Of a DNA stretch of 64,000 nucleotides, positions 9,172-24,427 are shown one piece after another. The position numbers and the translations under genes were made by a program. The notes beneath the pieces are model-generated. The model saw only the letters and a program-made list of their open reading frames with translations. It did not search any database and was not told the DNA's origin. The stretch's first letter is position 1; each line of letters begins with the position of its first letter. The stretch comes from Streptomyces roseoverticillatus (GTDB lineage Bacteria > Actinomycetota > Actinomycetes > Streptomycetales > Streptomycetaceae), in contig NZ_JOFL01000016.1 of the NCBI RefSeq assembly GCF_000719265.1, positions 320,991 to 384,990 of the forward strand, in the 5' to 3' direction.

Positions 9172-10425
9172 CTAGCGGGTGACCTGGCCGCCGCGGCCGG
9201 CGAGGGCGCCCGTGATGCCCATCGGGACCGCCAGGACCACCAGGGCGATCAGCCCCGTGGTCCAGGCGCCGGTCAGGTCGCGGGCGGCGCCGAAGGCCGT
9301 GGGGCCCAGGGCCGCCAGCAGGTAGCCCACGCACTGGGACATCGCGGACAGCAGGCCCGCGTCGTGCGTGGTGCGGGCGCACATGGACATGTACGCGATG
9401 CCCAGCGAGAGCACCGCCCCCAGGCCGAGGCCCAGGACGACGGCCCACAGCACCGCCGCCCCGGTCGGGGCCGCGATCAGGCCGGCGAAGGCGGCCATGC
9501 ACAGTACGGTGCCGATCACCGCCAGGTAGCTCTGCCGCCGGGACCGCTGCGCCCACACCGGCACCAGCAGCGAGGTGACCATGGCGGAGCCCATGCAGAC
9601 CGCCAGCAGCACGCCGGCGCCGCCCTCGCTCCAGCCGTGGTCGATGTAGAACGACGGCAGCCAGGTGGTCGCGGTGTAGTAGAGCAGCGACTGGAAGGCG
9701 TAGAAGAGGGCGACCGCCCACGCCAGGCGGCTCCGCCAGATCGAGCCGCCCGCCTGCTCACCCACCGGCCGCTGCGCACGGTCCCGGCGCAGCTTCGGTG
9801 CCCACACCAGCAGCGCCGCCAGGGCCAGGACGCCCCAGACGGCCAGGCCGCCGGCCCAGGTCAGCGACAGCGCGTCGCGCAGCGGCACGGTCGCCGCGGC
9901 CGTGACGGCGCCGCCGCCGACGAGCATGGTGGTGTGCAGGCCGGACATCAGCCCGACCTGCTGCGGGAAGTCCCGTTTGATCAGCGCGGTGATGACCACG
10001 TTGGCGATCGCCACCGCGGTGCCGACCAGGAACGTCCCGGCGAACAGGGGGAACAGCTCCGGGACGAGCCGCACCGCGCTGCCGGCGAGCAGCACCGCCA
10101 GCACCGCGACGAGGGTGCGCTCCATGCCCCAGCGGCGGGCCAGCCGGGGCGCGAGCGGGGCGAAGATGCCGAAGCAGATCAGCGGCAGCGTCGACAGCGC
10201 GCCGGCGCCGCCGTTGGACAGGCCGGTGACGTGCCGGATCTCGTCCAGCAGCGGCGAGACGGCCACGATGGCGGGCCGCATGTTGATCCCGACCAGCAGC
10301 ACCGCCAGCGCGTACCAGAGCAGGCGGCGGCTGCCCGGAGTGCCGCGGGCGGGACCGGGCCCTGGCTCGTCCGCCGTCCCGCGGGGCGGTGAAACCGTGG
10401 TTTCCGATTCAGGGGGTGGGGTCAC
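9172..10425 (-). CDS. MFS transporter, CynX/NimT family
   Basis: A 417-aa major facilitator with about 12 hydrophobic segments. The first loop LLVGINMRPAIVAVSPLLDE and GAGALSTLPLICFGIFAPLA match the CynX/NimT (cyanate or nitroimidazole) exporter family. The frame extends upstream to 10848, but GTG 10425 with GGAAGGA 6 bp before it gives a normal N-terminus. It is the last of three same-strand genes (katA, MBL hydrolase, MFS) with gaps of 28 and 41 bp, so co-transcription is possible. Substrate unknown. Confidence 0.85.
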   Translation of the reverse strand: MTPPPESETTVSPPRGTADEPGPGPARGTPGSRRLLWYALAVLLVGINMRPAIVAVSPLLDEIRHVTGLSNGGAGALSTLPLICFGIFAPLAPRLARRWGMERTLVAVLAVLLAGSAVRLVPELFPLFAGTFLVGTAVAIANVVITALIKRDFPQQVGLMSGLHTTMLVGGGAVTAAATVPLRDALSLTWAGGLAVWGVLALAALLVWAPKLRRDRAQRPVGEQAGGSIWRSRLAWAVALFYAFQSLLYYTATTWLPSFYIDHGWSEGGAGVLLAVCMGSAMVTSLLVPVWAQRSRRQSYLAVIGTVLCMAAFAGLIAAPTGAAVLWAVVLGLGLGAVLSLGIAYMSMCARTTHDAGLLSAMSQCVGYLLAALGPTAFGAARDLTGAWTTGLIALVVLAVPMGITGALAGRGGQVTR

Positions 10426-10466: not shown

Positions 10467-11252
10467 TCAGGCAGCGGCGGCCGCGAGCGGTACGGGCTTG
10501 CCGTCGCCGGGTGCGACGCCGTGGATGCCCCGGGCCCGGGCGGCCCGCAGGAACCTTCCGCGCACGTCGTGCTGCTCGGTGTAGTAGGGCGGGTTGTTGA
10601 AGAGGTCGTAGTGGATCGCGCAGGCGGTCGACGCCTCCAGCACGACCGCCGCCTCGACGGCCTGCTCCGGGGTGAGCGTGGCGGGCTGATTGGTCGGGGT
10701 GATGCCTTCGCGGCGGGCCATCACCCCGGCGATGGGCAGGAAGGCTACGTCGAAGGGGCCGTACTCGCGTGCGATCTCCCACCACTTGCCGTGCCAGATG
10801 GTGTCGCCGAAGTGGATGACGCGCAGCCCGGGGGCCTCCACGATCCACGCGACCTGGTCGTCGCCGCGCCAGTCGTGGGAGGGCACGGGGATGGTGGTGA
10901 AGGGCCCGATCTGGCGCCGCTCGCCCATGTCCTGCGCGACGGCGGTCACCCCCATCTTCCCCAGGACGTCCACGATCGGGGTGTGGCAGCCCACGGTGCA
11001 GCCCTCGGTGGCGGCGAACTCCGTGAGCAGCAGCCGGTCGCAGTGGTCGGGGTGGAGGTGGGTGACGAAGGCGTGGGTCCGTACGCCCGGGGGCGCCTCG
11101 ATGCTGGGCAGGGGACGCCGGGGCATGCCCTGGAACCCCGCGAGGTCCGCGGGGTTCTTGAGGGCGTCGATGACGATCCGGTCGTCTCCGCAGGCCACTT
11201 CGACGCCGGCCCAGGCGAGACGCCGCAGGGTGACGGTCTCGGCCGAACTCAT
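10467..11252 (-). CDS. MBL-fold metallo-hydrolase (UlaG-like)
   Basis: A 261-aa zinc-dependent hydrolase of the metallo-beta-lactamase superfamily. It has the metal-binding motif THLHPDHCDR, later ligands in VPSHDW and HFGDTIWHGKWW, and a C-terminal CAIHYDLFNNPPYY. The layout resembles UlaG/YycJ-type lactonases or phosphodiesterases. Substrate cannot be assigned. The gene lies between catalase and an MFS exporter on the same strand. The start has AGGAGCACACC upstream. Confidence 0.82.
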   Translation of the reverse strand: MSSAETVTLRRLAWAGVEVACGDDRIVIDALKNPADLAGFQGMPRRPLPSIEAPPGVRTHAFVTHLHPDHCDRLLLTEFAATEGCTVGCHTPIVDVLGKMGVTAVAQDMGERRQIGPFTTIPVPSHDWRGDDQVAWIVEAPGLRVIHFGDTIWHGKWWEIAREYGPFDVAFLPIAGVMARREGITPTNQPATLTPEQAVEAAVVLEASTACAIHYDLFNNPPYYTEQHDVRGRFLRAARARGIHGVAPGDGKPVPLAAAAA

Positions 11253-11280: not shown

Positions 11281-12738
11281 TCACTGGCCGGTGACGCCGA
11301 GGCCCCGGGAGACCCGGTCGCCCAGGTCCTTGTGGACGCTGCGCCAGTAGTCGACGACGCGCTCCTTGGTTTCCGTGCGCACCTCGGGCGCCGAGGCGTG
11401 CGCGACGATGTTGGCCACCAGGTGGTCGCGGTCGGTGTCGGTCATGACCTTCTCCCACAGGGCGCGGGCCTGGCCGAAGTCGTCGTCCTCCGCGTGCAGC
11501 CGGTGGGCGCTGCGCACGATCTCACCGGTGACCTCGTAGTGCTCGCCGGCGAGCAGGAGCGGGTCGGCGACCGGTCCGGCGAAGCTGTTGGGCGCGTAGA
11601 CGGGGTCGCCGGGGTTGTCGTACCGCATGGAGCCGTCGCGGTTGTACGAGTGGACCGCGTTCTTGGGCCGGTTGACCGGCAGCTGCAGGTAGTTGGCGCC
11701 GATGCGGTACCGGTGGGTGTCGGGGTAGCTGAACAGCCGCCCCTGCAGCATCTTGTCCGGGGAGGCCCCGACCCCCGGGACCAGGTTCGACGGCTCGAAG
11801 GCGGCCTGCTCGACCTCGGCGAAGTAGTTCTCCGGGTTGCGGCTGAGGGTGAGGGTGCCGATGTCGAGGGGCGGGTAGTCCTCGTGCGGCCAGACCTTGG
11901 TCAGGTCGAACGGGTTGAAGCGGTAGTCCGCGGCGTCCTCGAAGGGCATGACCTGCACCTGGAGGGTCCAGGTCGGGTGGTCGCCCTTCCTGATCGCCTC
12001 GTGGAGGTCGCGGATGTGGAAGTCAGGGTCCTCGGCGCCTGCGGCCGCGGCCTCGGTGCCGGTGAAGTTCCTGATGCCCTGGTCGGTCTTGAAGTGGTAC
12101 TTCACCCAGAACTTCTCGCGGGCGGCGTTGTACCACAGGAACGTGTGGCTGCCGTAGCCGTTCATGTGCCGCCAGGAGTACGGGGTGCCGCGGTCCGACA
12201 TCAGGAGCGTGACCTGGTGCGCCGACTCGGGCGAGAGCGTCCAGAAGTCCCACTGCATGTTGTTGTCGTGCAGGTGGTTGTCGGCGCGCCGCTTCTGCGA
12301 GTGGATGAAGTCGGGGAACTTCTGCGGGTCGCGGATGAAGAAGATCGGGGTGTTGTTCCCGACGATGTCGTAGTTGCCCTCTTCGGTGTAGAGCTTGACC
12401 GCGAACCCGCGCGGGTCGCGGGCGGTGTCCGCGAAGCCGAGCTCGCCGGCGACCGTGGAGAAGCGCAGGAACAGCTCGGTGCGCTTGCCGCGCCGGAAGA
12501 CGTCGGCCTTGGTGAACTGGCTGACGTCCTCGGTGATTTCCAGGGTTCCGTAGGCGCCGCCGCCCTTGGCGTGCACGACCCGCTCGGGCACGCGCTCGCG
12601 GTCGAAGTGCGCGAGCTTCTGGATGAGGTAGTGGTCCTGCAGCAGCAGCGGGCCGTCGGCCCCTACGGACTGGGAGAACTCGTCGCTCGGTACCGGGATA
12701 CCGCTGTCCGTGGTCGTCAGCGGACGACTCTCGGTCAT
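11281..12738 (-). CDS. katA: Monofunctional heme catalase
   Basis: A 485-aa small-subunit catalase that disproportionates H2O2. The catalytic histidine lies in ERVVHAKGGGAYGTLE, the distal asparagine in DIVGNNTPIFFIRD, and the proximal heme tyrosine in GRLFSYPDTHRYRIG. ATG 12738 follows GAAGGGA by 7 bp. Only about 56 bp separate it from the terminator of the upstream operon, so its promoter must lie in 12739-12794. No regulator of the Fur or OxyR type is adjacent. Confidence 0.95.
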   Translation of the reverse strand: MTESRPLTTTDSGIPVPSDEFSQSVGADGPLLLQDHYLIQKLAHFDRERVPERVVHAKGGGAYGTLEITEDVSQFTKADVFRRGKRTELFLRFSTVAGELGFADTARDPRGFAVKLYTEEGNYDIVGNNTPIFFIRDPQKFPDFIHSQKRRADNHLHDNNMQWDFWTLSPESAHQVTLLMSDRGTPYSWRHMNGYGSHTFLWYNAAREKFWVKYHFKTDQGIRNFTGTEAAAAGAEDPDFHIRDLHEAIRKGDHPTWTLQVQVMPFEDAADYRFNPFDLTKVWPHEDYPPLDIGTLTLSRNPENYFAEVEQAAFEPSNLVPGVGASPDKMLQGRLFSYPDTHRYRIGANYLQLPVNRPKNAVHSYNRDGSMRYDNPGDPVYAPNSFAGPVADPLLLAGEHYEVTGEIVRSAHRLHAEDDDFGQARALWEKVMTDTDRDHLVANIVAHASAPEVRTETKERVVDYWRSVHKDLGDRVSRGLGVTGQ

Positions 12739-12794: not shown

Positions 12795-12832
12795 GCGGAG
12801 CGGCACGGCCCGCGGGGGCCGTGCCGCTCCGC
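12795..12832 (-). terminator. Hairpin terminator of the oxygenase-ACP operon
   Basis: A perfect 16-bp stem (12795-12810 with 12817-12832, left arm GCGGAGCGGCACGGCC) with a 6-nt loop begins 9 bp after the methyltransferase stop. It separates the biosynthetic operon from katA. Confidence 0.85.
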
Positions 12833-12841
12833 TCGTCGCGA

Positions 12842-13660
12842 CTAGGCGAGTTCCGCGCGGAGCAGCCAGTTGCGCGCCGCTCCCCTGACCTCGCGGGGCT
12901 GGACGGCGTACGGCCAGCGGCCCTCGCCGGCGCCGGGCTCGCCCGGCTCCTTGAGCTCGCGTACGGTCCAGCCGGTGCCGGCCATGAACTCCTCGGGCTC
13001 GTCGGTCCCGAAGAGCCAGGGGATCCCGTCCTCGTTGAGGGAGGACAGGAAGATCTGGGTGGCCGGGCTGCGCAGGAGCGCCTTGCTGAGGATGTCCACC
13101 GCGACCTGGCTGCCGGGGACCGAGTTGGCCGCGAAGGTGCGCATCAGCGTGGCGGACTGCTCCTCGGTCAGGAAGAACAGCAGGGCCTCGGGGATCCAGA
13201 GGGTGGGCTGCGCGGGGTCGAAGTCGGTGGCGCGCAGCGCCGCGGACCAGTCCCCGGCCAGGTCGGCCCCGACCCGCTGCAGGTTCACGGTCGGCGCCGG
13301 GGAGCCCAGCTGGGCCAGGCGCTTCTCCTTCTCGTCGATCAGGGCCTGGTGGTCGACCTCGTACACCCGGACGTCGTCGGGGAGGGACAGCCGGTAGGCG
13401 CGGGTGTCCATGCCGGCCGCGATCAGCACGACCTGCCGGATCCCCTTCTTCACCGCGTCGCCGATGGCGTCGTCGAGGTAGCGGGTGCGGACGGCCACGA
13501 ACTCGACGAGTCCGCCGCCGCCGTAGTGGTCGAGCAGCTCGAACCCCTTGGGCTCGGCGAGCGCGCGGGCCAGCGGGTCGACGAAGAGGGCGTCGCTCCG
13601 CTCGCTCTCCAGGGCGCGGGCGGCCGCGGTCCACTGCGACGTGTAGGACACGGTCTCCAT
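12842..13660 (-). CDS. SAM-dependent methyltransferase, LCMT/PPM1 family
   Basis: A 272-aa class I methyltransferase of the leucine-carboxyl-methyltransferase type (the TIGR00027-like bacterial group). The SAM site is QVVLIAAGMDTRAYRL (residues about 76-91), followed by VYEVDHQALIDEKEKRL. Family members methylate carboxylates or hydroxyls of small molecules. The open frame continues upstream, but ATG 13660 with GGAG 6 bp before it is the natural start. It is the last gene of the operon starting at 16612, 35 bp after the MaoC gene, and is followed by a strong terminator. It is inferred to perform a late O-methylation on the operon product. Confidence 0.85.
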   Translation of the reverse strand: METVSYTSQWTAAARALESERSDALFVDPLARALAEPKGFELLDHYGGGGLVEFVAVRTRYLDDAIGDAVKKGIRQVVLIAAGMDTRAYRLSLPDDVRVYEVDHQALIDEKEKRLAQLGSPAPTVNLQRVGADLAGDWSAALRATDFDPAQPTLWIPEALLFFLTEEQSATLMRTFAANSVPGSQVAVDILSKALLRSPATQIFLSSLNEDGIPWLFGTDEPEEFMAGTGWTVRELKEPGEPGAGEGRWPYAVQPREVRGAARNWLLRAELA

Positions 13661-13695
13661 GACGGGCTCCGTTCTCGGGATCGGGAAGGGTCTGG

Positions 13696-14166
13696 TCAGG
13701 CGTGCTTGGGCCGGCACCGGAAGCGGGCGTTGAGGATCAGCGTCAGGACCTCGTCCCCGTCCGCGTTCACCAGGCGTCCGCGGTTGCGGACGATGCGGAA
13801 GTCGGGCGCGGAGAGGGAGGGGAGGACGGCGGCGATCTCGCACGTGCCGGTGAGCACGTCGCCCGGGCGGACCGGCTGCAGGAAGCGCACCTCGTCGACG
13901 CCGGGCGAGCCCTCGACCGTGCCCTCGGCCGCGGCGTCGGGCAGCAGCGTCGTCACGTACAGGCGCATCCAGATCGCGGCGGTGTTCCACCCGCTGGCGA
14001 TGAGGCCGCCGAAGGCGGAGGCGCGCCCCGCCTCCTCGTCGAGGTGGTACGGCTGCGGGTCGTAGGTGCGGCCGAAGGCGGTGATCTCCTCGGCCGTCAC
14101 CTTGTGCGACCCGAGGTCGAAGCTGCTGCCGATCGTGTAGTCCTCGGCGTGGACCAGACGGCCCAT
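13696..14166 (-). CDS. MaoC-like hot-dog dehydratase/hydratase
   Basis: A 156-aa single hot-dog protein. The catalytic pair sits in RTYDPQPYHLDEE (Asp36 and His41), followed by FGGLIASGWNTAAIWMRL, the usual MaoC arrangement. MaoC proteins hydrate or dehydrate enoyl thioesters, so in this operon it probably acts on the acyl group held by the neighbouring carrier protein. Its ATG overlaps the ACP stop by one base (TGATG), indicating coupled translation. Confidence 0.87.
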   Translation of the reverse strand: MGRLVHAEDYTIGSSFDLGSHKVTAEEITAFGRTYDPQPYHLDEEAGRASAFGGLIASGWNTAAIWMRLYVTTLLPDAAAEGTVEGSPGVDEVRFLQPVRPGDVLTGTCEIAAVLPSLSAPDFRIVRNRGRLVNADGDEVLTLILNARFRCRPKHA

Positions 14167-14405
14167 CAGAAGTACTTCCGCTCGATGGCTTCCAGGGTGC
14201 GGAAGTCCTCGAGGTCGATGGCCTCGTGGTCGATCTCCACGCCGCTGGCCTCCTCGACCGTCAGGACGAACTCGACGAAGGAGAGCGAGTCGACGAGACG
14301 GGCCTTGATGAGGTCCTCGTCCGCGGCGATGGAGGTGCGCTCGGGGTGCTTGGCCAGCAGCCAGTTCCGCACGGTGTCAAGGTTGGACGAGGTGGTGCTG
14401 GGCAT
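14166..14405 (-). CDS. Acyl carrier protein
   Basis: A 79-aa free-standing carrier protein. The phosphopantetheine serine is Ser40 in LVDSLSFVEFVLTVEE, and the total length and acidic helix III are normal. It lies directly between its likely modifying enzyme (AcpS-like, upstream) and its likely loading ligase two genes upstream. It overlaps the AcpS reading frame by 29 bp at its start and MaoC by one base at its end. It is not near fatty-acid or polyketide synthase genes, so it is a dedicated carrier for this operon. Confidence 0.9.
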   Translation of the reverse strand: MPSTTSSNLDTVRNWLLAKHPERTSIAADEDLIKARLVDSLSFVEFVLTVEEASGVEIDHEAIDLEDFRTLEAIERKYF

Positions 14406-14865
14406 GGGTTTCCTCCTTGTGCGGGTGCATGTGCGGGTACGTGTGCGTGTGCGTGGGCATGTGCGTGTGCCCGGGGCGTGCCGCCGCCGTGGCTGCGACG
14501 GCGACGGCGAACAGTTCTTCGTGGGAGATGCTGACGTCGACGGCCTCGATGCCGGCGTCGGCGGCCCAGCGGTGCGCGGGTCCGGTGAGCCGGACGCAGG
14601 GCCACTCGCCGGGGCTCTTGAGGATCTCGATGGACTGCCAGGGAAGCGGCCGGCCGGGGACGTGGAGCAGCTTGAACACCGCTTCCTTCGCCGCGAGGCG
14701 GCCGGCGACTCCGTGGAGGTCCCAGCCGGTGGGGAACCGGCTCAGGGCGATCTCCGCGGGGGTGAGCATGCGGTGCAGCCGGGCGTCGTCGCCGGCGTCC
14801 GTCATGGCCTGCACCCGGGTCAGGGGGACGAGGTCCACGCCGACCCGGATCGCGGTCCCGCTCAC
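14377..14865 (-). CDS. AcpS-type 4'-phosphopantetheinyl transferase with His-rich tail
   Basis: A 162-aa transferase that would convert apo- to holo-carrier protein. The metal-binding Asp is in IRVGVDLVPL and the Glu/Lys pair in GRLAAKEAVFKLLHVPG; VDVSISHEE is the usual C-terminal core strand. Start GTG 14865 overlaps the upstream ligase stop by 4 bp (GTGA). After the core the frame continues for about 30 residues of His-rich sequence (HTHMPTHTHTYPHMHPHK, then two more His clusters, ten His in 26 residues). That tail is encoded by a GTGTGC-rich tract which also holds the ribosome site and first 29 bp of the ACP gene. The tail is absent from ordinary AcpS proteins. Confidence 0.85.
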   Translation of the reverse strand: MSGTAIRVGVDLVPLTRVQAMTDAGDDARLHRMLTPAEIALSRFPTGWDLHGVAGRLAAKEAVFKLLHVPGRPLPWQSIEILKSPGEWPCVRLTGPAHRWAADAGIEAVDVSISHEELFAVAVAATAAARPGHTHMPTHTHTYPHMHPHKEETHAQHHLVQP

Positions 14866-15695
14866 GCGGCGGCGGCGTTGACGGCGGCGCGGGCCTCCTG
14901 CAGGTCGCCGCCGAACCGGTCGCCCAGGACCGCCAGCCACCGTTCGAGGCCGAAGGCGACACACCCGGTGAAGGCGTGCTCGCCGGTGCCGTCGACGGTG
15001 ATGGCGCACCGTTCGCCGAAGAAGTTGCGGTGGGTGTTGACGGAGGCGATGGCCAGTCCGTCGGCCTGGAACTCGTACTTGACGGGGCTGAGCCGCTGGA
15101 GGAGGGCCCGGCCGCTGTCCCGTTCGAAGAACGGGTCGGAGGCCGGCTCCTTCTGCAGCTCCAGGCCGAGTTCCTTGGCGAACCGCTCGATCCGGTCGGT
15201 GAAGCGGGCGATGACGTCCTGGGTGTGCTCGAAACTTCCGATGGCCACGATCTCGCGCATCTGGAAGCTGAGCAGCCGCCTCAGCCCTTCGTACTTCTGC
15301 TCGTTGCGGAAACACCGGTTGATGAGGGTGATGGTGGTGTCGGGGGCCACCGACTGCTGCTCGAAGTAGAGGTAGGCGCCGTAGCAGCTGGAGTGCGGCA
15401 GCCCGAGGAACGGGGGGTCGACGTCGCGGCTGGCGAAGGCGCCTCCCACCGGGGCCGGCGGGGCTCCGGTGACGTCCAGCGGGCCGCCGACGAACTGCAG
15501 GTGCGGGAAGTTGGCGTAGACGTCGAACTTCTCCAGGTCGCGCAGCGGGTAGACGGGCGGCGGCATGATCTCCCGCGCGCCGGCCCCGGCGGCCCAGCCG
15601 GTGATGGTGCGGTCCAGGTCGCGCAGCAGGTCGGTCTGGTCGGGGCCGAGGATGGTGAGCGCACCGTCCTGGGCCGTCGAGAGCGTCGCGGTCAC
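14862..15695 (-). CDS. Class II aminoacyl-tRNA-synthetase-like amino acid:[carrier protein] ligase
   Basis: A 277-aa protein with a class II synthetase catalytic core but no tRNA-binding domain. Motif 2 is INRCFRNEQKYEGLRRLLSF with QMREI, and motif 3 is GCVAFGLERWLAVLG. Cys104 (HSSCYG), Glu148 (MREI) and Cys245 (TGCVAF) sit where the zinc ligands of the atypical SerRS-like amino acid:[carrier protein] ligases are expected. Such ligases activate small amino acids and load them onto a carrier protein; this is established for Bradyrhizobium homologues. The adjacent ACP and AcpS support the same job here. GTG 15695 overlaps the oxygenase stop by 4 bp. Amino-acid specificity is unknown. Confidence 0.8.
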   Translation of the reverse strand: MTATLSTAQDGALTILGPDQTDLLRDLDRTITGWAAGAGAREIMPPPVYPLRDLEKFDVYANFPHLQFVGGPLDVTGAPPAPVGGAFASRDVDPPFLGLPHSSCYGAYLYFEQQSVAPDTTITLINRCFRNEQKYEGLRRLLSFQMREIVAIGSFEHTQDVIARFTDRIERFAKELGLELQKEPASDPFFERDSGRALLQRLSPVKYEFQADGLAIASVNTHRNFFGERCAITVDGTGEHAFTGCVAFGLERWLAVLGDRFGGDLQEARAAVNAAAA

Positions 15696-16612
15696 GCCTG
15701 CCCCCGTCCTACGGGCGTCTTGGCGAAGCCGAGGTCCCGGTCGGGCAGGATCCCGGTCTTGACGAGGTAGTTGAGCGGCTTGCGGAAGACCTGCTGCTGG
15801 AACTCCGCGCTGCGCGGGGAGGCCAGCAGGCGCCGCCGGACGGCGAACGGTTCGGGAATGCCGGCGTCCCGGTAGACGTGCGGGTTGAACAGGGACTCGA
15901 AGCTGTAGTTCAGGTAGCGCCTGATGTACGCCCGGACCCGGTCGAGCTCCTCCTCCGAGGCGTTCGCCGTCAGGTCCTTGAAGAGCAGGGAGACCAGTTC
16001 GCGGCCGAAGGCGATGTGCCGGGACTCGTCCTGGTGGTGAATCCGGTTGACCGCCCGGATGGTGTCGTGGAGCCGTTCGTCGGCCGCCATCGTGCTGTTG
16101 AAGTGGTCGACCAGTTCCTCGAAGAGGAGGATGCGGAGGAACACCAGGAAGCTGGCGGCCTCGTCGGACCACGCCTCCCCTTCCCCGGCCGGCTCCAGCT
16201 GGCGGTAGATCTTGTTGCCGTACCGCAGGCAGAATTCGGCGAAGAACCACATGTGCTCGTTCTCCTCACCGATGAAGTGGTGGAAGAACTCGGACGGTAT
16301 CTCGAAGCCCCGCGTGTGAATGCGCCTGGTCACTTCGACAATGAGCTCGCGAATGCCGTCCACATTCAGGCTGTAGAAGTTGATGCTCTCGAACCGGGAC
16401 AGCCGGTGCAGCTGTTCCTCGCTCAGTTCGGAGGCGATCTCGGTGCCAAAGGTGGTTGTGAGCTCGGGGCTCATCCACCACCGGTGTTCCGGCAGGGAAT
16501 CCGGCCAGTCGAACATCCGGTAAGGGTTGTAGTAGTCCTCGACCGACTTGCGGTTGAGGCGCTCCAGGATCTCCTGGAATCGATCGTCCTTGCTGATCAG
16601 CTCGCTGATCAT
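15692..16612 (-). CDS. AurF-like diiron oxygenase
   Basis: A 306-aa ferritin-like helical protein matching the p-aminobenzoate N-oxygenase (AurF/CmlI) family. Likely iron ligands are Glu75 (SRFESINFY), Glu117 and His120 (GEENEHMWFF), Glu165/166 (LFEELVDH), and His192, Glu196 and His199 (IHHQDESRHIAFG). The H-x3-E-x2-H spacing equals that of AurF. Enzymes of this family oxidise amines to hydroxylamine, nitroso or nitro groups, and some relatives act on carrier-bound substrates. It is first gene of the six-gene operon, so its substrate is probably the aminoacyl-ACP made by the next gene's product. GGAGG stands 5 bp before the ATG. Confidence 0.85.
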   Translation of the reverse strand: MISELISKDDRFQEILERLNRKSVEDYYNPYRMFDWPDSLPEHRWWMSPELTTTFGTEIASELSEEQLHRLSRFESINFYSLNVDGIRELIVEVTRRIHTRGFEIPSEFFHHFIGEENEHMWFFAEFCLRYGNKIYRQLEPAGEGEAWSDEAASFLVFLRILLFEELVDHFNSTMAADERLHDTIRAVNRIHHQDESRHIAFGRELVSLLFKDLTANASEEELDRVRAYIRRYLNYSFESLFNPHVYRDAGIPEPFAVRRRLLASPRSAEFQQQVFRKPLNYLVKTGILPDRDLGFAKTPVGRGQA

Positions 16613-16796
16613 CCTACCTCCTGCATCCGAGGGGGGTCACTCCGGGGGCGACTGGACGGACAGGACGGCTCAGAGTCCGGACACAAAGGAAGTACTGCTC
16701 TCATCGAATTCGGCCGGCATTCGCCCGCCGGTTTTTCGATGCCCGTTTGCGACAGCGACGTTTCCATGCACCGCCCCGGCAGTCCAATAAAGTTGA

Positions 16797-16812
16797 TCTA
16801 TGGATGCATAGA
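16797..16812. promoter_or_regulatory. Candidate LysR operator dyad
   Basis: TCTATG-GATG-CATAGA is a perfect 6+6 inverted repeat in the AT-richer gap. It lies about 185 bp upstream of the oxygenase start and 230 bp upstream of the LysR start. LysR regulators usually bind imperfect T-N11-A dyads in such divergent regions; assignment to this regulator is inference. Confidence 0.45.
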
Positions 16813-16949
16813 CGTTCGCTAACACCGCAGGTCAAACGGCCCCCGCACCACCTTTCAAGTGGCGCGGATCACAAACCGGATGGCCCGCCTTTTATTTGAC
16901 GCCCCGTCGGGCGAGCGGCCCGTCGGCGGACGAAGTGCCTGCTGAGGCG

Positions 16950-16980
16950 TTGACCGGGCTTCGCCTTACGTTGCTACACT
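16950..16980 (+). promoter_or_regulatory. Candidate vegetative promoter for the LysR gene
   Basis: TTGACC (16950-16955) and TACACT (16975-16980) with a 19-bp spacer resemble HrdB-type -35 and -10 boxes, 60 bp upstream of the LysR start. The spacer is slightly long. Confidence 0.4.
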
Positions 16981-17039
16981 CGCGAAGCACCCGGAAAGTA
17001 AACTTTCGTAATGGGAATAACCCTGGCGGGAGGTCGCAC

Positions 17040-18005
17040 GTGCGGGGAGACCAGGAGCCTTTACTCAGCCTCTCCGGTCTATTGCGCCGCCTGGAGTACT
17101 TCGTCGTCGTGGCCGACGAACTCCATCTGGGAAGAGCGGCACAGCGCTGCGGGGTGAGCCAGCCCACCCTCTCGCATCAGCTGAAGGTGCTGGAAAAGGA
17201 ACTGGGGGCCCAGCTGCTGAGCCGCGACAGCCGCCGGATGTCGCTGACCCCGCCGGGCCGGGCCCTGCAGGAGGAGGCGCCGCAGCTACTGCAGCGCACG
17301 TACTCGATCAAGGCCCGGATCAGGGAGGCGGCCGCGGGGCCCGGCCGGCCGGTGCGGGTCGCCTTCAGCCGCTCCGGACACGCCCTGCGCCAGCGGGAGA
17401 TGGTCGCGGAGTTCCGGGCGCGCGACGCCCTCCCGGTCTCCGTGGAGTCCGGCTGGTCGGCACGGAACATCGAGCAAGTGCGCGCCGGGCGGGTCGACTT
17501 CGCGTTCGTCAGACCGCCCATCGAGGCGGACGATTTGCGGATGGCCGTCGTGGGAGAGGTGGAGCTGGTCGAACTCCTCCCGGGCGAGGGCGCGTCCGGC
17601 CGTACGGAGGAGGACCGGGCCGCCGGCGACCTCCCGCTCATTATGTGGCCGCGCTCGCTCGCCCCAGGGCTCCACGACAAGATCCTCACCATCGTCGGGC
17701 AGGAGCGGTCTCCGCGGGGGCTGCCCCCGTACGTCGCGTGGGAGGAGCCCGACTACATCAACGTGGCGGCGGCCGTGGCCTCCGGCGCGGGCATGTCGTA
17801 CATGGACCGCGACATCGCCGAATGGATGAGCCTCAGCCTGGACCTGCGCATGCGCCCGCTGGGTGCGCCCGGGCCGCGGACGGACGTCGCCGTGGTCTGG
17901 CGCGAGGACCAGGACCCCGGCCTGGCGTCACGGTTCGTCGCGGCGTGCTGCGGGGTCGGCCAACCCGGCGGCACGGAAGCGGAATGCGGCTGTCTGGTGC
18001 AGTAG
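17040..18005 (+). CDS. LysR-family transcriptional regulator
   Basis: A 321-aa LysR protein. The N-terminal winged helix reads LEYFVVVADELHLGRAAQRC, then GVSQPTLSHQLKVLEKELGA and LSRDSRRMSLTPPGR. The substrate-binding half follows (VRVAFSRSGHALRQREMVAEF, VASGAGMSYMDRDIAEW). The frame is open from 16896, but GTG 17040 with GGGAGG 7 bp upstream gives the canonical N-terminal length. It is divergent from the oxygenase operon and is its most likely regulator, responding to an unknown small molecule. The C-terminal tail is short and Cys-containing (ECGCLVQ). Confidence 0.88.
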   Translation: MRGDQEPLLSLSGLLRRLEYFVVVADELHLGRAAQRCGVSQPTLSHQLKVLEKELGAQLLSRDSRRMSLTPPGRALQEEAPQLLQRTYSIKARIREAAAGPGRPVRVAFSRSGHALRQREMVAEFRARDALPVSVESGWSARNIEQVRAGRVDFAFVRPPIEADDLRMAVVGEVELVELLPGEGASGRTEEDRAAGDLPLIMWPRSLAPGLHDKILTIVGQERSPRGLPPYVAWEEPDYINVAAAVASGAGMSYMDRDIAEWMSLSLDLRMRPLGAPGPRTDVAVVWREDQDPGLASRFVAACCGVGQPGGTEAECGCLVQ

Positions 18006-18088: not shown

Positions 18089-18367
18089 ATGAACTGCTAC
18101 GACTGCTACGCCTCGGAGGGCGCCGACACCGCCGCGGTCGCCGTGTGCCACGGCTGCAACTCCGGCCTGTGCCCCGGCCACCTCCGCATCACCCGCCCGG
18201 TGGTCCACCGGGTGAACGGCACGGGCGTCTCCCACAGCCCCGCCCCGGCCCGGCAAGTGCTGTGCGCCACCTGCCACGCCGCTGCCCAGGGCGTCACCCT
18301 GCCCGCCCCGTCGGCGGAGCGAGCGGACCGGGCGGACCGGGCCGCGAAGCGCAGCCCCGTCACCTGA
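18089..18367 (+). CDS. DUF2180-family small zinc-binding protein
   Basis: A 92-aa Cys/His-rich protein: MNCYDCYASEG, AVCHGCNSGLCPGHLRI and QVLCATCHAAAQG give CxxC pairs suited to one or two zinc ions. This matches the actinobacterial DUF2180 family, whose function is unknown. AAGGGG lies 8 bp before the ATG. It follows the LysR gene by 83 bp on the same strand. Its last 8 bp overlap the end of the convergent NHLM ABC gene. Confidence 0.8.
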   Translation: MNCYDCYASEGADTAAVAVCHGCNSGLCPGHLRITRPVVHRVNGTGVSHSPAPARQVLCATCHAAAQGVTLPAPSAERADRADRAAKRSPVT

Positions 18368-21233
18368 GCTGGCGGCGGACCAGGTCGTGGAAGAGCCCGC
18401 CCGTGCCGGCGAGCAACGCGGCGGGCGGGCCCTGCTGGACGACCCGCCCCTCCGCCATGACGATCACCCGGTCGGCGTCCATGACCGTGGACAGCCGGTG
18501 GGCGATCACGATGCGGGTGGCGCGCAGGGCGCGGGTGGACTCGATGACCACGCGCTGGGCCTCGTTGTCCAGCGCGCTGGTGGCCTCGTCCAGGAAGAGG
18601 ACGCGCGGCTTGCGGACGAGGGCCTGGGCGATCATCAGCCGCTGGCGCTGGCCGCCGGAGACGGTGCCTCCGCCGTCCGACAGCATGGTGTGCATGCCCA
18701 TGGGCATGGCCTTGATGTCCTCGGCGAGGCCCGCCATGGCGGCGGCCTCCCACGCCTCCTCCAGGGTGAAGGTCCCGGCGCCGCAGATGCAGTCGAGGAT
18801 CGAGCCGGAGAACGGCTGGGCGTTCTGCAGGACGACGCCGCACTGGTGGCGGACGGCCGCCTGGTCGAGCGCCGCGAGGTCCTGCCCGTCGTAGAGCACG
18901 CTGCCGGAGGCCGGCTTGTCGAAGCCGATGAGCAGGCGCAGCAGGGTCGACTTGCCGCAGCCGCTGGCCCCGACGACCGCGACGAACTCCCCCGGCCGCA
19001 CGGCGAACGACACGTCGTCCAGGACGAGCGGCCCGTCGTCGGCGTACCGGTAGGACAGGCCCACGGCCTCGACGGCGCCGCTGAGTTCGCCCGGCTGGAC
19101 GTCGGAGCCGCGCACCTCCGGGGCGGCCTCCAGGACCGGCTTGATCTGTTCGAACATCGGCTGCACGGCGGCGGCCGAGAGGAGCGCGCCGGTGAGCTGG
19201 GTGACGGAGGACAGCAGCATCGTCACGGCGGTGCTGAAGGTGAGGAAGTCCCCGGCGGACATGCTGCCCCGGGCGGGCCCGGCCAGCAGCATGAACATCA
19301 CGAGCGTGCACAGCGGCAGGGCGACGGCGTTGAGCACGGTGACGACGTTCTTGATGCGGCCGATGCGCTGCTGCAGCTCGCGCGTGCGGGCGAACTCCCG
19401 GGCCCAGGCGGCGTAGGCGAAGCTCTCGGCCGCCGCCACGCGCAGCTTGGGCAGCCCGCGCAGGGTCTGGAAGGCCTGGTTGTCGAGCTTGTTGCCGAGC
19501 CTGACGAGCTGCCGCTGGTAGCGCAGCTGCCACAGGCCGAGGCCCAGGAAGGCCGCGGCGATGCCGAGCAGCAGGGCGAGCGCGGCCATGGCGAGCGGCA
19601 CGCTGTAGACGAGCAGCAGGGCCAGGTTCACCGTGCCGACGGTGCCCGCCTGCAGCACGACGGGCGCGGTGCCGGACAGGACGCGGCGGATCGCGCTGAC
19701 GCCCATGGCCGCGCCCGCCAGTTCGCCCGTGGAGCGGCCGGTGAAGAACTTCGCCGGCAGCCGCAGCAGCCGGTCCCACACCGCGGGCTGCAGGGTGGCC
19801 TCGATGCGGCCCTCCATGCGCAGGATCGCGATGTTCTGCAGCAGCACGAAGACGGCGGAGACGATGCTCGTGGCCACGAGCGCCACGGCCGTCTGCACGA
19901 TGAGGCCGCTCTCGGCCTCGGGCACGTACCGGCCGAGCACCTTGCCGGTGGCGACGGGCACGAGCGCGCCCAGGGCGACCGTGACGAGCCCGCCCAGGGC
20001 GAGGCCGCGCAGTTCCTGGCCGGTGCCGCGCAGGGTGAAGCGCAGGAGGGGCAGCAGGCGCGGCTTCCCGGGGGGCAGAGGGCGGTAGAGCATGACGGCG
20101 CGCGGTTCGTACGCGTCCTCGCTGTCCTTGCCGAGTCGCTCGCGCCTGCCGGTGGCGGGGTCGACGGCCTCGTACCGCCCGCGCCGCCACAGGAGCGCGA
20201 CGGGTGCCCCGTCCTCCGCGCGCCGGCCGACCAGGGGGCCGCTGTTGTCGCGCCACCAGCGGCCGCTGAGCCCGACGGTGCGGGTGCGGATGCGCGAGGC
20301 GAGCGCGATGCGTTCGACGGGGTCCGTCCGGGCGTCGGCCGCGCCCGCTCCGGCCGGCTCGGTCAGGGCGATGCGGGCCTCGTCGGCGACCAGGCGGCAC
20401 GCGGCGAACGTCGCGTCGTCGTCCCGCGCGCCGCGGCGCGGTGACCGGCCGGAGCGGCCGATGGAGGCCAGGAGCGCCTGGTCCGCGCGGGTGCGGGCGG
20501 CCTCGCCGGCCTCGATGCCGGCGGCCGTGCGGTCCTCGTGGGCGCGCTCGGCCTGCTCGATCCAGCGGTCGAGGGCGTACAGCAGCCGGTACTGCTGGTC
20601 GACCATGCCCTGCCACATCGCCGGGTCGACGAGCAGGCTCCCGGCCGTGCAGCCTTCGTAGGGGGCGCCGTACTGCACGCTGCCGGGGGTGATCTGCATC
20701 CACAGGACGTCCTCGTCGGCGCCGCCCGGGCCCTGGGCCGCGCGGTTCTCCAAGGGCGCCTGGTAGAGGACGCGCAGTCCGCGGCCGATGCCGAGGGCGA
20801 AGGCGTTCTCCAGGGGGCCGAGCGTCCCGCCGGGAGCGCCGTCCTGCCACGCTTCGCCGTTCTGCCAGGGGTCGCCGTACTGCCAGGAGTCGCCGTGCCA
20901 GGCGCCCGCGTGCTCCTGCCGGTGCAGCTCGTGGAGGTCGATGCGGCGCAGTGCGCAGCCCTGCAGGGGCCGGCCGAGCAGGGTGTGCTCGGGGCCGTCG
21001 GCCGGGCCCAGGAGCAGCGTGCCCGGGGCCAGCCGGCCCAGGAAGTGCCAGTGCCCGGCGCGGGCGGCGTCGACGGCGAACAGGTCCAGTTCGCCGTCCA
21101 CGACGAGCCACAGGACGAGCGGGCCCTCCAGGTCCAGGCTGCGCAGGCCCGTGCAGTCGACGGGCGTGCCGAGCGCGCCGAGGGCCGCCACGACCGGGTC
21201 GGTGACGGTGGAAACGGGGTACGGGGTGGTCAC
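18360..21233 (-). CDS. NHLM-type ABC transporter permease/ATPase without peptidase domain
   Basis: A 957-aa export protein of the NHLM bacteriocin system (second ABC subunit). The first about 400 residues are a soluble region lacking a C39 protease. Then come the membrane domain (from LRFTLRGTGQELRGLALGGL) and the ATPase, with Walker A VVGASGCGKSTLLRLL, signature TVSGGQRQRLMIAQAL and Walker B VLFLDEATSALD. Start is GTG 21233, one base after the stop of the peptidase-ABC gene. Residues about 113-130 contain three six-residue repeats (GDSWQY, GDPWQN, GEAWQD) encoded by 18-bp DNA repeats. It works with the neighbouring C39 transporter and HlyD adaptor to export the adjacent precursor peptide. 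Confidence 0.9.
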   Translation of the reverse strand: MTTPYPVSTVTDPVVAALGALGTPVDCTGLRSLDLEGPLVLWLVVDGELDLFAVDAARAGHWHFLGRLAPGTLLLGPADGPEHTLLGRPLQGCALRRIDLHELHRQEHAGAWHGDSWQYGDPWQNGEAWQDGAPGGTLGPLENAFALGIGRGLRVLYQAPLENRAAQGPGGADEDVLWMQITPGSVQYGAPYEGCTAGSLLVDPAMWQGMVDQQYRLLYALDRWIEQAERAHEDRTAAGIEAGEAARTRADQALLASIGRSGRSPRRGARDDDATFAACRLVADEARIALTEPAGAGAADARTDPVERIALASRIRTRTVGLSGRWWRDNSGPLVGRRAEDGAPVALLWRRGRYEAVDPATGRRERLGKDSEDAYEPRAVMLYRPLPPGKPRLLPLLRFTLRGTGQELRGLALGGLVTVALGALVPVATGKVLGRYVPEAESGLIVQTAVALVATSIVSAVFVLLQNIAILRMEGRIEATLQPAVWDRLLRLPAKFFTGRSTGELAGAAMGVSAIRRVLSGTAPVVLQAGTVGTVNLALLLVYSVPLAMAALALLLGIAAAFLGLGLWQLRYQRQLVRLGNKLDNQAFQTLRGLPKLRVAAAESFAYAAWAREFARTRELQQRIGRIKNVVTVLNAVALPLCTLVMFMLLAGPARGSMSAGDFLTFSTAVTMLLSSVTQLTGALLSAAAVQPMFEQIKPVLEAAPEVRGSDVQPGELSGAVEAVGLSYRYADDGPLVLDDVSFAVRPGEFVAVVGASGCGKSTLLRLLIGFDKPASGSVLYDGQDLAALDQAAVRHQCGVVLQNAQPFSGSILDCICGAGTFTLEEAWEAAAMAGLAEDIKAMPMGMHTMLSDGGGTVSGGQRQRLMIAQALVRKPRVLFLDEATSALDNEAQRVVIESTRALRATRIVIAHRLSTVMDADRVIVMAEGRVVQQGPPAALLAGTGGLFHDLVRRQLR
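20844..20897. repeat. 18-bp in-frame tandem repeat, three units
   Basis: Units at 20844, 20862 and 20880 share CTGCCA-N4-TCGCCGT and encode the Trp-Gln hexapeptide repeats in the soluble N-terminal region of the second ABC protein. Confidence 0.8.
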
Positions 21234-21234
21234 G

Positions 21235-23472
21235 TCAGTGCTCCCTGACCAGTTCGGCGTACGGGCCCCCGGCCGCGGCCAGGTGCTCGTGGCGCCCGCG
21301 TTCGACGACCGTGCCGCGGTCGAGGACGAGGATCTCGTCGCTGTCGCGCACGGTGCTCAGCCGGTGGGCGATGACGACGCAAGCGCAGCCGCGGCGGCGC
21401 AGGTTGTCCATGACGGTCTGCTCGGTGACCGCGTCGAGGGCGCTGGTCACCTCGTCCAGGACCAGGACGCTGGGGCGGCGCACGAGCGCGCGGGCGATCT
21501 CCAGGCGCTGGCGCTGGCCGCCGGAGAAGTTGCGGCCGTCCTGCTCGACGCGGCTGTGGATGCCGCCGGGGCGGCGGGCGACGACGTCGTACACGGCGGC
21601 GTCCTGCAGGGCGGCGACCACGGCGTCGTCGGGAACGGAGGGGTCCCACAGGGCGACGTTGTCGCGGACGGTGCCCTCGAAGAGGAAGACGTCCTGGTCG
21701 ACGAAGGAGACGGAGGCGGCGAGCGCGCCGCGCGGGATGTCCTCCAGGCGCATCCCGTCGATGCGGACGGTGCCCTCCCAGGGCGCGTAGAGGCCGGATA
21801 TCAGCCGGGAGACGGTGGACTTGCCGCTGCCGGAGCCGCCGACGAGGGCGATCTGCTGCCCGGGGCCGGCGGAGAGCGAGAAGTCCTTCAGCAGCGGGGC
21901 GTCGAGGGGGCTGTAGCCGAAGGTGATGCCGTCCAGCTCCACGTGGCCCTTGAGGCGGCGGGTGGCGGCGGGTGGCTCGCGGCGCGCGTGGACCGGGTCG
22001 ACGGGGAAGTTCTCGACGTCCTTGAGGCGGGCGACGTCGGCGGCGAAGTCCTGGATGCGGCCGGCCACGCCGTTGAGCCGGGTGATCGGCGCGGTGAAGC
22101 CGGTCACGAGGGCCTGGAAGGCGACGAGGAGGCCGACGGAGAGGTGTCCCTCGACGGCTCGCAGGCCGCCGATGGCGAGGATCAGCGCGCTGTTGAGGGC
22201 GGCGAGGGTGGGCGCGGCGACCGCCAGCCAGGCGCTGGGCACGCCGAGCTGCTGCTGGACGTCGAGGGTGACGGCGTGCCGGCCCGCCCAGCGGCGGAAG
22301 AAGCCGTTCTCGCCGCCGGTCGCCTTCATCGTTTCGATGAGCTGCAGGCCGCTGTAGGAGGTGTTGGTGAGCCGTGCGCTCTCGGCGCGCAGCTTCTGGG
22401 TGCCGGTGGCCCGCACGCGGACCACGATGCGCAGGGCGAGGACGTTGAGGAGCGCGATGCCGATGCCTACGACGGTGAGCTGCGGGTCGTACGTCCACAG
22501 CAGCACGGCGTAGAGGACGACGACCACCGCGTCGACCCCGGCCGCGGCGAGGTCCCGTGCGAGGGTCTCGGCGACCGCGTCGTTGGATCGCAGGCGCTGG
22601 ACGAGGTCGGCCGGGTTGCGCTGGGCGTAGAAGGTGACCGGGAGCCTGAGCAGGTGGCGCAGGAAGCGGGCGCTGCCCAGGGTGGAGGAGATGATGCGGC
22701 CGCGCAGCAGGTTGGCCTGCTGCAGCGCGGTGAGCGTGGCGGTGAGCACGAGGGCGGTCGCCATGGACGCGAAGAGCACGCCCAGCAGGGAGGTCCGGCC
22801 ACTGATCAGGAACGTGTCGATGTACGTGCGGCTCAGCGCGGGCACCGCCGCGCCGACGGCCACCAGCAGGAGGCTGGAGAGGACGGCGGCGATCATGGTG
22901 CCGGACGTGCCGCGCAGCCGGGCGGGCATCGCGCCCATGACGCCGGGGCGGCGGCCGGCGCGGCGGAAGTCCGGGCCGGGTTCGAAGGTGAGCACGACGC
23001 CGGTGAAGGCGGAGTCGAACTCCTCCATCGGGACGAACCGGCGGCCCTTGGCGGGGTCGTTGACGTAGACGCCCCGGCGGCCGAACCGGCGGCCCGTGCC
23101 GTCGTAGACGACGTAGTGGTTGAACTCCCAGAACAGGACGGCCGGGGCGCGCACCCCGGCGAGGGCGGCCAGGTCCATCTGCATGCCCTTGGCCGTCAGC
23201 CCGTAGCTGCGGGCGGCCTTGAGGAGGTTGCTGGCGCGGGAGCCGTCGCGGGAGACGCCGCAGGCGATGCGGAGCTCTTCGAGGGGGACGAAGCGGCCGT
23301 GGTGGCCGAGCACCATGGCGAGCGCGGCGGCGCCGCACTCGACGGCCTCCATCTGCAGGACGGTGGGGGTGCGTACGGTCTTGGGCGTACGCGTGGTCTT
23401 GGAAGTGCGTACGGACTTCTGCCGGCCGGCGGAGGGCGCGGGCGCGGTCCGGCGGCGGCGCGCGGCGGTCAC
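21235..23472 (-). CDS. NHLM-type C39 peptidase-containing ABC exporter
   Basis: A 745-aa bifunctional exporter that would cut the leader after the double glycine and export the core. The N-terminal C39 protease has its catalytic Cys46 in MEAVECGAAALAMVLGHHG, His119 in WEFNHYVVYDG and Asp139 in YVNDPAKGRR. Six membrane helices follow, then the ATPase (Walker A ALVGGSGSGKSTVSRLI, signature FSGGQRQRLEIARAL, VLVLDEVTSALD). The first 35 residues are a Lys/Arg/Thr-rich tail. Its start overlaps the HlyD stop by 4 bp. The intact catalytic triad shows that leader removal is part of this system. Confidence 0.92.
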   Translation of the reverse strand: MTAARRRRTAPAPSAGRQKSVRTSKTTRTPKTVRTPTVLQMEAVECGAAALAMVLGHHGRFVPLEELRIACGVSRDGSRASNLLKAARSYGLTAKGMQMDLAALAGVRAPAVLFWEFNHYVVYDGTGRRFGRRGVYVNDPAKGRRFVPMEEFDSAFTGVVLTFEPGPDFRRAGRRPGVMGAMPARLRGTSGTMIAAVLSSLLLVAVGAAVPALSRTYIDTFLISGRTSLLGVLFASMATALVLTATLTALQQANLLRGRIISSTLGSARFLRHLLRLPVTFYAQRNPADLVQRLRSNDAVAETLARDLAAAGVDAVVVVLYAVLLWTYDPQLTVVGIGIALLNVLALRIVVRVRATGTQKLRAESARLTNTSYSGLQLIETMKATGGENGFFRRWAGRHAVTLDVQQQLGVPSAWLAVAAPTLAALNSALILAIGGLRAVEGHLSVGLLVAFQALVTGFTAPITRLNGVAGRIQDFAADVARLKDVENFPVDPVHARREPPAATRRLKGHVELDGITFGYSPLDAPLLKDFSLSAGPGQQIALVGGSGSGKSTVSRLISGLYAPWEGTVRIDGMRLEDIPRGALAASVSFVDQDVFLFEGTVRDNVALWDPSVPDDAVVAALQDAAVYDVVARRPGGIHSRVEQDGRNFSGGQRQRLEIARALVRRPSVLVLDEVTSALDAVTEQTVMDNLRRRGCACVVIAHRLSTVRDSDEILVLDRGTVVERGRHEHLAAAGGPYAELVREH

Positions 23473-24275: not shown

Positions 24276-24340
24276 GGACTATTCCTTCGACTGCATTCGT
24301 GACACGGGTACTGAAATGTACGACGGAAATGCGGGCAGCC

Positions 24341-24377
24341 GTGAACCCCGGAACAGGGGAGGAGTTCCGGGATTCAC
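24341..24377 (-). terminator. Hairpin between precursor and exporter genes
   Basis: GTGAACCCCGGAAC (24341-24354) pairs with GTTCCGGGATTCAC (24364-24377): a 14-bp stem with one mismatch and a 9-nt loop. It lies between the precursor stop and the HlyD start on the same strand, so it could be a partial terminator or RNA-processing site that keeps precursor mRNA more abundant than exporter mRNA. Confidence 0.55.
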
Positions 24378-24387
24378 AGGCGGCGTA

Positions 24388-24427
24388 TTCTCAGAGGTTC
24401 TCGGAGATTCTCAGAGGATCTCAGAGA
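24388..24427. repeat. 10-bp tandem repeat, four units, at precursor 3' end
   Basis: TTCTCAGAGG, TTCTCGGAGA, TTCTCAGAGG and ATCTCAGAGA follow one another. The last unit contains the precursor stop codon. Ten-bp spacing equals one helical turn. Confidence 0.75.

Follow-up and report, generated by a model that had tools for sequence, protein, structure and literature searches.

Organization of the operon

A stretch of 64,000 nucleotides (nt) from the 7.2-Mb genome of Streptomyces roseoverticillatus, hereafter called the window, carries on its minus strand, from position 16612 down to 12842, a six-gene operon that by analogy with published chemistry probably encodes a stand-alone pathway in which glycine is converted into a carrier-bound nitronate and, with a MaoC protein present, may meet a different fate from that in published pathways. 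The first gene (15692..16612) encodes an AurF-family diiron N-oxygenase of 306 amino acids (aa; PF11583), proposed here to convert glycyl-carrier protein to the nitronate, and is followed by genes for a SerRS-like amino acid:[carrier protein] ligase (LIG; 14862..15695, 277 aa, GTG start, PF00587), the proposed glycine loader, an AcpS-type 4'-phosphopantetheinyl transferase (14377..14865, 162 aa, GTG start, PF01648 at E 5.5e-11) and a free-standing acyl or aminoacyl carrier protein (ACP; 14166..14405, 79 aa, PF00550 at E 3.4e-4). The last two genes encode a MaoC-type (de)hydratase (13696..14166, 156 aa, PF01575 at E 2.4e-15) and an LCM/TIGR00027-type methyltransferase (MT) dependent on S-adenosylmethionine (SAM) (12842..13660, 272 aa, PF04072 at E 4e-47, TIGR00027 at E 8e-64), proposed to act as a nitronate O-methyltransferase.

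From their coordinates, consecutive genes overlap by 4, 4, 29 and 1 bp, and 35 bp separate the MaoC and methyltransferase genes. Every operon member exceeds the curated cut-off of its Pfam family, the ligase and the ACP only narrowly. An earlier note on this DNA had described the same six genes, families and overlaps together with a divergent LysR-type regulator, all of which the coordinates and Pfam matches bear out, and family scans agree with its statement that neither a nonribosomal peptide synthetase (NRPS) nor a polyketide synthase (PKS) is found among the operon genes. The ratio of nonsynonymous to synonymous substitution rates (dN/dS) is below 1 for all genes (range 0.0-0.61), each gene being compared with the relatives in which it was found. 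Among named genomes, the operon has its nearest relatives in Streptomyces klenkii and in a record titled Streptosporangium nondiastaticum.

The strong terminator that the earlier note had placed at the end of the operon stands in part. The 103-bp gap 3' of the methyltransferase gene folds, as computed, with -65.6 kcal/mol for the whole gap and contains on the minus strand a perfect 17-bp hairpin with a 4-base loop (12795..12832), but the hairpin lacks a T run and is not among the calls of a terminator scan of the window. It suggests a separate or attenuated transcript for the downstream genes.

Predicted properties of the encoded proteins

The oxygenase scores 114.9 bits against PF11583 (cut-off 29.6), its candidate diiron ligands are invariant across 15 aligned sequences, and its structure model is best matched by AurF and CmlI, at 12-14% identity over the structural alignments. 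PDB sequence searches with the protein and with its profile returned no match, nor did Foldseek with the model at E <= 0.001. The same genome encodes a second, distant AurF-like protein (G000:C8:251397-252179, locus L002; 28% identity) within an 820-aa open frame. The ligase (29.5 bits against PF00587, cut-off 29.3) has PRK07080, the amino acid--[ACP] ligase family, as its best NCBIfam match (E 2.2e-28), and a PDB sequence search aligned 231 of its 277 residues with the Bradyrhizobium ligase 3mey (E 1.9e-22), with type-2 SerRS structures also among the matches. Its residues C104, E148 and C245 align with the Cys, Glu and Cys of 3mey, which we take to be the zinc ligands of the SerRS-like core.

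The ACP scores 21.2 bits against PF00550 (cut-off 20.8), and its DSL motif with Ser40 was read from the sequence. Its best NCBIfam match, the cispentacin ACP AmcB, is weak (31.6 bits, cut-off 80), and a link to cispentacin was set aside for that reason. The C-terminal tail of AcpS is rich in His and Thr and is encoded by a CAC-rich repeat (window 14377-14480) that occurs in two close relatives (L033, L034) and is absent from two others (L035, L036); it was treated as a repeat expansion rather than as a meaningful feature. At E <= 1e-10, the methyltransferase is the only match to itself in its own genome.

In an alignment, D36 and H41 of MaoC, presumably its catalytic dyad, are invariant in 17 homologues. 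The AlphaFold2 (AF2) model has a mean predicted local distance difference test (pLDDT) score of 95.5, and its best PDB match is the MaoC-like dehydratase 3exz (TM 0.84/0.89). With both the hot-dog fold and the Asp/His pair present, the protein is, as modelled, a sound hot-dog dehydratase.

Conservation of the gene set across genomes

A survey of 394 genomes of the family at E <= 1e-60 gave 88 oxygenase matches in 77 genomes, with 41-100% identity; the distant ones were checked only for an adjoining ligase. Counted against the best 113 ligase matches only, a ligase relative lies within 2.5 kb of the oxygenase in 85 of the 88 matches, whereas the chance of so close a ligase is roughly 0.0006 per match if uniform placing is assumed. 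The earlier note had proposed a search for such co-occurrence, and its result means that the homologues do not occur only singly. One match outside the 85 (G372) has a ligase next door in two pieces.

A second survey, of named genomes, took the best 80 loci of 199 encoding a relative, its searches covering the fetched flanks only. In these 80 loci the ligase was matched in 79, the ACP in 79, AcpS in 74 and the methyltransferase in 76. The six-gene set thus rests on a conserved pathway core. Two of the loci, from metagenome-assembled genomes of Pseudonocardiales (L051, L067), have upstream a tandem pair of genes from a single family, glycosyltransferase-like by eye, and L051 also has a gene resembling HAD-type phosphatases; the fate of the product may differ there. 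Among 65 Actinomadura genomes there was no cluster of the window's architecture above 69% identity. Further MaoC-bearing clusters are hinted at in metagenomes, outside all counts given here.

Distribution of MaoC among the locus architectures

The 80 loci fall into architectures that differ above all in MaoC. Type A, with the order AurF-LIG-AcpS-ACP-MaoC-MT, comprises the window, L033-L037 and L064, a short contig; type B (43 of 80 loci) has the core without MaoC. MaoC is present in 37 of the 80 loci, six of type A and 31 others (C/D), and its gene directly precedes a methyltransferase gene in all 37. In 28 of the 31 others, a pyridoxal phosphate (PLP) enzyme of PF01053 and a second methyltransferase were also matched, and these loci form type C, with the order PLP enzyme-MaoC-MT-second MT-AurF-LIG-AcpS-ACP. 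Two of the others (L086, L098) have the compact order AurF-LIG-ACP-MDMPI-MaoC-MT-PIG-L, and L104 falls in between. One locus, L054, was assigned to type B, since the MaoC matched there is that of an adjacent C-type copy in the same genome (L103); the two loci have flanks in common, so that some of the matches recorded for either are located in its neighbour.

Six extended downstream stretches of C-type loci were inspected. Three contain MetK, a PfkB kinase, MetH, MetF, AhcY and a mycothiol-dependent MDMPI-type enzyme, in two more, one gene of the row from MetK to MDMPI is not called, and the sixth is of the compact kind. Within 10-kb flanks of the 31 C/D loci, MetK was found in 27, MetH in 21, AhcY in 14, MDMPI in 15 and PIG-L in 4. 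The type-C relatives (L081-L111, extended in L151-L155) hold a large part of a methyl cycle next to the predicted nitronate core, and we suspect heavy methyl use and thiol chemistry in them.

The distribution of condensing and ligating enzymes was followed with a panel of seven probe families (E <= 1e-20) that was drawn from B-type clusters and is hence biased towards them. At least one of the seven occurs in 36 of 43 B loci, whereas none of the 37 MaoC loci was matched within the fetched flanks; the six type-A relatives (L064 being short) gave no panel match, and no condensing enzyme was seen among the genes scanned around the window operon. Because MaoC occurs where the probe condensing enzymes were not found, its presence suggests a different fate for the N-oxygenated acyl-ACP. 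What is new is this combination of MaoC with no condensing enzyme detected; no description of the operon with MaoC was found in the accessible portions of openly licensed PMC papers.

The oxygenase phylogeny (81 sequences, drawn from the midpoint) follows the architectures. The 31 C/D rows lie on one side of a branch with support 100/85, and the window clade of six rows stands apart at 100/98, with L064 beside B (91/60). At a fork of 89/82, which is below the starred level, the window clade joins the enteromycin-type rows, with clade C apart. The architecture labels need 3 changes on the tree against a mean of 30.9 when shuffled.

Proposed pathway and alternative readings

The chemistry has a published precedent. 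In enteromycin carboxamide biosynthesis, carrier-bound glycine is converted by a diiron oxygenase to a nitronate that is then O-methylated (He & Ryan 2021, Nat Chem 13:599, via PMC11035981, PMC12154687). Akazaoxime and A-76356 derive from glycine, leucine and propionate according to labelling, and the akazaoxime cluster of Micromonospora encodes an adenylation-peptidyl carrier protein (A-PCP; _56660), a KS-AT-KR-ACP protein (_56670), a free ACP (_56710) and a methyltransferase (_56720) (PMC9967187). Its order fits that of L063-type loci (in L063: AMP-ligase, PKS, serine-hydrolase-like, AurF, LIG, AcpS, ACP, MT), with AurF, LIG and AcpS falling in the gap; gene orders rather than published sequences were compared. 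This fit suggests, by analogy, that LIG may load glycine in akazaoxime-type loci. Given the published enteromycin route and the fitting akazaoxime order, the window operon likely takes glycine as its substrate and passes through an O-methyl nitronate bound to the carrier.

In the reading that we favour, AcpS would arm the ACP with phosphopantetheine, as its family suggests, and the SerRS-like ligase would adenylate an alpha-amino acid, most likely glycine, and load it onto the ACP, a reaction for which the biochemistry of a relative family is published. The AurF-like enzyme would convert the amine of the carrier-bound glycine to a nitronate or nitroacetyl thioester, as the enteromycin precedent and the shared gene order suggest, and the LCM-type methyltransferase would O-methylate the nitronate on the same precedent. 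In enteromycin- and akazaoxime-type clusters the acyl group would then pass to condensing enzymes, of which none was found here; instead MaoC, its dyad intact, would work on the N-oxygenated acyl group while this is bound to the carrier, or on an intermediate close to it. Homology, synteny and published chemistry support three steps of the earlier note: loading of a free-standing ACP with an amino acid, N-oxygenation and O-methylation. Its interpretation, leading to an N-oxygenated amino-acid derivative, was right in outline, although it named neither glycine nor the nitronate and gave MaoC only generic enoyl-thioester chemistry.

Several observations weigh against this reading. To our knowledge, MaoC has no role in the published enteromycin-type scheme. 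The condensing-enzyme contrast is imperfect: in seven of 43 B loci none of the probe condensing enzymes was matched, an AsnB-type amide synthetase lies downstream of some C-type clusters, and one C-type locus has a downstream protein of 1273 aa that is 27% identical to the AMP-ligase probe. Nor is the core complete everywhere. In the family survey, one genome with an oxygenase (G034) has no ligase match, and in another (G314), where two ligase matches were counted and one listed, none is listed near the second oxygenase copy. Among the 80 loci, a ligase match is missing from L067, an ACP match from L039 (at a contig end), a methyltransferase match from L039, L051, L067 and L112, and an AcpS match from L048, L068, L075, L086, L098 and L112; L112 is a distant cluster with its genes in a different order. 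The divergent LysR gene is matched in four of six type-A loci, with no match in L037 and only a short contig in L064. From the literature, relatives of AurF also make nitroso, azoxy and diazo groups (PMC12154687), nitronate being one product of ferritin-like diiron N-oxygenases (PMC12154687, citing He & Ryan), and the akazaoxime authors assign glycine loading to the NRPS A-PCP protein (PMC9967187). Finally, the window ligase misses the PRK07080 equivalog cut-off (99.1 bits against 357) and is, by its score, a relative of that family rather than an equivalog.

Because the ligase falls so far under the cut-off of the known family, substrates besides glycine, such as Ala or Ser, are possible. It might then load Ala, Ser or a non-protein amino acid towards another N-oxygenated amino acid, and on seryl-ACP, MaoC would do the usual work of a beta-hydroxyacyl dehydratase and form dehydroalanyl-ACP. 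The SerRS-like ligase fold (PF00587, type-2 SerRS among the PDB matches) would suit this, and thioester-bound serine is a beta-hydroxyacyl thioester of the kind that MaoC enzymes use. The identities to the B-type loci, enteromycin and akazaoxime look-alikes included, make it quite unlikely: 58-71% for the oxygenase against the 43 B loci (69% in L044 and L045, 68% in L063), 40-66% for the ligase (65% in L045) and 52-65% for the methyltransferase in the 39 of 43 with a match (65% in L045).

In N-oxidised glycyl thioesters the nitrogen holds the beta position, where a MaoC dehydratase normally works, and this chemical argument opens two more specific views of the MaoC step, both of which we hold to be unlikely. 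In the first, the oxygenase would go no further than the oxime, or the pathway would fall back to it: glycyl-ACP would pass through N-hydroxyglycyl- to oximinoacetyl-ACP, and the oxime would either be dehydrated by MaoC to a cyanoformyl (nitrile) thioester or be O-methylated. The intact dyad of MaoC agrees with such an oxime route, as does akazaoxime, which comes from a cluster fitting the same core order and carries an aldoxime for which the authors cite an althiomycin-type oxime route (PMC9967187). The named precedent has a nitronate intermediate, however, and MaoC was unmatched in the akazaoxime-like PKS loci L057, L063, L066 and L075. These four loci (in Micromonospora, Microbispora, Amycolatopsis and Actinomadura) have the SerRS-like ligase adjoining the oxygenase.

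The second view keeps the favoured O-methyl nitronate and is conceivable because of the same beta nitrogen. MaoC might act as an aza-dehydratase that removes the alpha-hydrogen and the oxygen substituent bound to nitrogen, so that methanol or water would be eliminated and a carrier-bound nitrile oxide or cyanoformyl thioester would form; O-methylation would make the nitronate oxygen a leaving group. The sister MaoC clade has MDMPI, SAM-recycling enzymes, the PLP enzyme (a member of the C-S lyase superfamily) and, in some loci, a PIG-L amidase, which could then add and process a thiol, a bacterial counterpart to the thiohydroximate step of plant glucosinolate biosynthesis. The reactive acyl group of the window operon would undergo hydrolysis or release before export. 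No other MaoC is known to us to act at an N-O bond, a point on which no search was made.

Genes flanking the operon

The six-gene extent given by the earlier note describes a real operon set and misses three linked genes downstream, all on the minus strand. These encode a catalase (11281..12738, 485 aa, PF00199), a metallo-beta-lactamase (MBL)-fold hydrolase (10467..11252, 261 aa, PF12706 at E 1e-19) and a CynX/NimT-family transporter of the major facilitator superfamily (MFS; 9172..10425, 417 aa, TIGR00896 at E 2.5e-100, PF07690), the last with 336 bits against a TIGR00896 cut-off of 406. The catalase, MBL and MFS genes follow the operon in all five complete type-A loci, with the catalase gene directly next to it, and the catalase has no match in the 31 MaoC-bearing C/D loci or the 43 B loci. 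At E <= 1e-60, the MBL gene occurs in six of 199 genomes of the genus, its own included. Because its closest other copy (G444, 96%) sits within the same kind of cluster, whereas four copies at 56-57% show no operon, catalase or MFS match within the 13-18 kb fetched, the trio appears to accompany the type-A operon, at least among the close relatives compared, L064 being too short a contig to judge. The product might be released by the MBL-fold protein as a thioester hydrolase and exported by the MFS transporter, both guesses, and the catalase may, as a further guess, handle peroxide from the oxygenase.

The catalase would also suit the peroxide-forming chemistry of an oxidative denitrification cassette, in which the nitronate, once formed, would not enter a product but be degraded to nitrite and a glyoxylyl thioester. 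Strain NRRL 3125 of S. achromogenes var. streptozoticus either O-methylates the nitronate and puts it into enteromycin or denitrifies it, and this second fate is reported to run via a nitronate monooxygenase, with which such cassettes are found (PMC11035981). A family scan found no nitronate monooxygenase among the operon, LysR, catalase, MBL, MFS, ABC, CorA-like, AlkZ-like and DUF2180 genes, no probe having been run over the genome or the relatives, and the methyltransferase is kept in all six type-A loci; denitrification as the purpose of the operon is therefore very unlikely.

Upstream, the LysR-type regulator (17040..18005, plus strand, 321 aa, GTG start, PF00126 and PF03466) is divergent from the oxygenase gene at a spacing of 427 bp and probably controls the operon. 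Beside it lies a gene for a small Cys-rich DUF2180 protein (window 18089-18367), and a DUF2180-like gene (family f44) adjoins LysR in four type-A loci. An NHLM-type peptide export set (window 18360-24690) also adjoins LysR and comprises two ABC transporters (TIGR03797, TIGR03796) and an HlyD-like protein (153.8 bits against TIGR03794, cut-off 156.2); a small open reading frame (24421-24690) with a DAVSGG stretch and no family match may encode the leader of a ribosomally synthesized and post-translationally modified peptide (RiPP) precursor, and no modifying enzyme was identified. Two genes beyond the MFS gene, an AlkZ-like DNA glycosylase is encoded (window 6729-7841, PF06224 at 276 bits). AlkZ-like enzymes protect some producers of DNA-damaging products. 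At 41186-43204, the window encodes a protein near the tetracycline resistance ribosomal protection protein Otr(A) (893.9 bits, cut-off 900).

Comparison with known systems

If the favoured reading is true, glycine-derived nitronate chemistry, known from few antibiotics, may be common and largely unread in the family (77 of 394 genomes), and it need not depend on NRPS loading, since the oxygenase nearly always has a small SerRS-like ligase next to it. Branches with MaoC (37 of 80 loci) would offer a testable handle on further fates of a nitronate bound to its carrier, among them possibly nitrile-oxide or thiohydroximate chemistry, and an aza-dehydratase MaoC, if real, would be a new route to nitrile oxides and nitriles.

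The earlier note had known of no named pathway with this gene set. In fact the genes other than MaoC, five of the six, make up the core of loci resembling those of enteromycin and akazaoxime. The reaction series from carrier-bound glycine to the O-methyl nitronate is published, and the core is of a known kind. Like the window, the enteromycin carboxamide pathway has a diiron oxygenase and a methyltransferase; its carrier-bound glycine would be a further common feature, for which the window has a ligase, AcpS and an ACP. Two B-type loci, L045 (S. achromogenes NRRL B-2120, which is not the published strain) and L044 (S. albireticuli, which we take to be an enteromycin source), have the core and largely the same downstream block, and AurF-LIG-AcpS-ACP-MT of L045 share 52-69% identity per gene with the window. 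In contrast to these two, MaoC is present in the type-A relatives of the window, where the KASIII-like and ATP-grasp probes, drawn from such B-type loci, gave no match. L045 and L044 also have a PLP decarboxylase, a second ACP and acyl-CoA-dehydrogenase-like genes, and the window has the catalase, MBL-fold hydrolase and CynX/NimT-type MFS genes instead. Judged by its genes, the window locus is not an enteromycin cluster, although the core chemistry may be shared.

The akazaoxime cluster resembles the window in its diiron oxygenase and in a free ACP directly before a methyltransferase termed nitronate O-methyltransferase (PMC9967187), and its look-alike L063 has the AurF-LIG-AcpS-ACP-MT order of the window; it differs in its NRPS and PKS modules, and MaoC is unmatched in L063. 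The SerRS-like ligase in such PKS loci is in tension with the published A-PCP assignment, and the glycine-loading enzyme of akazaoxime biosynthesis merits re-examination.

For single enzymes, other parallels exist. PvfB-type oxygenases, which act on carrier-bound amino acids, may be one. Azoxy (valanimycin) and azaserine/diazo links were considered, but the enzymes named for those pathways were not seen here; neither a VlmO-type hydrazine-forming enzyme nor a seryl transferase of the aliphatic azoxy pathway (VlmO/VlmB type) is named among the families of the operon and its neighbours, VlmO and VlmA not having been used as queries. AurF and CmlI, the arylamine N-oxygenases, share PF11583, the candidate diiron ligands and a structural match with the window oxygenase, whose substrate, unlike theirs, is predicted to be aliphatic and carrier-bound. 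The Bradyrhizobium amino acid:[carrier protein] ligase family (Mocibob 2010) is described with other partners in PMC2922099. Its member 3mey and the window ligase have in common the class II SerRS-like core and the residues aligned with the zinc ligands, and the window has its ACP gene in the same operon; unlike that family, the window ligase falls far under the NCBIfam cut-off and is coupled to an N-oxygenase and a methyltransferase.

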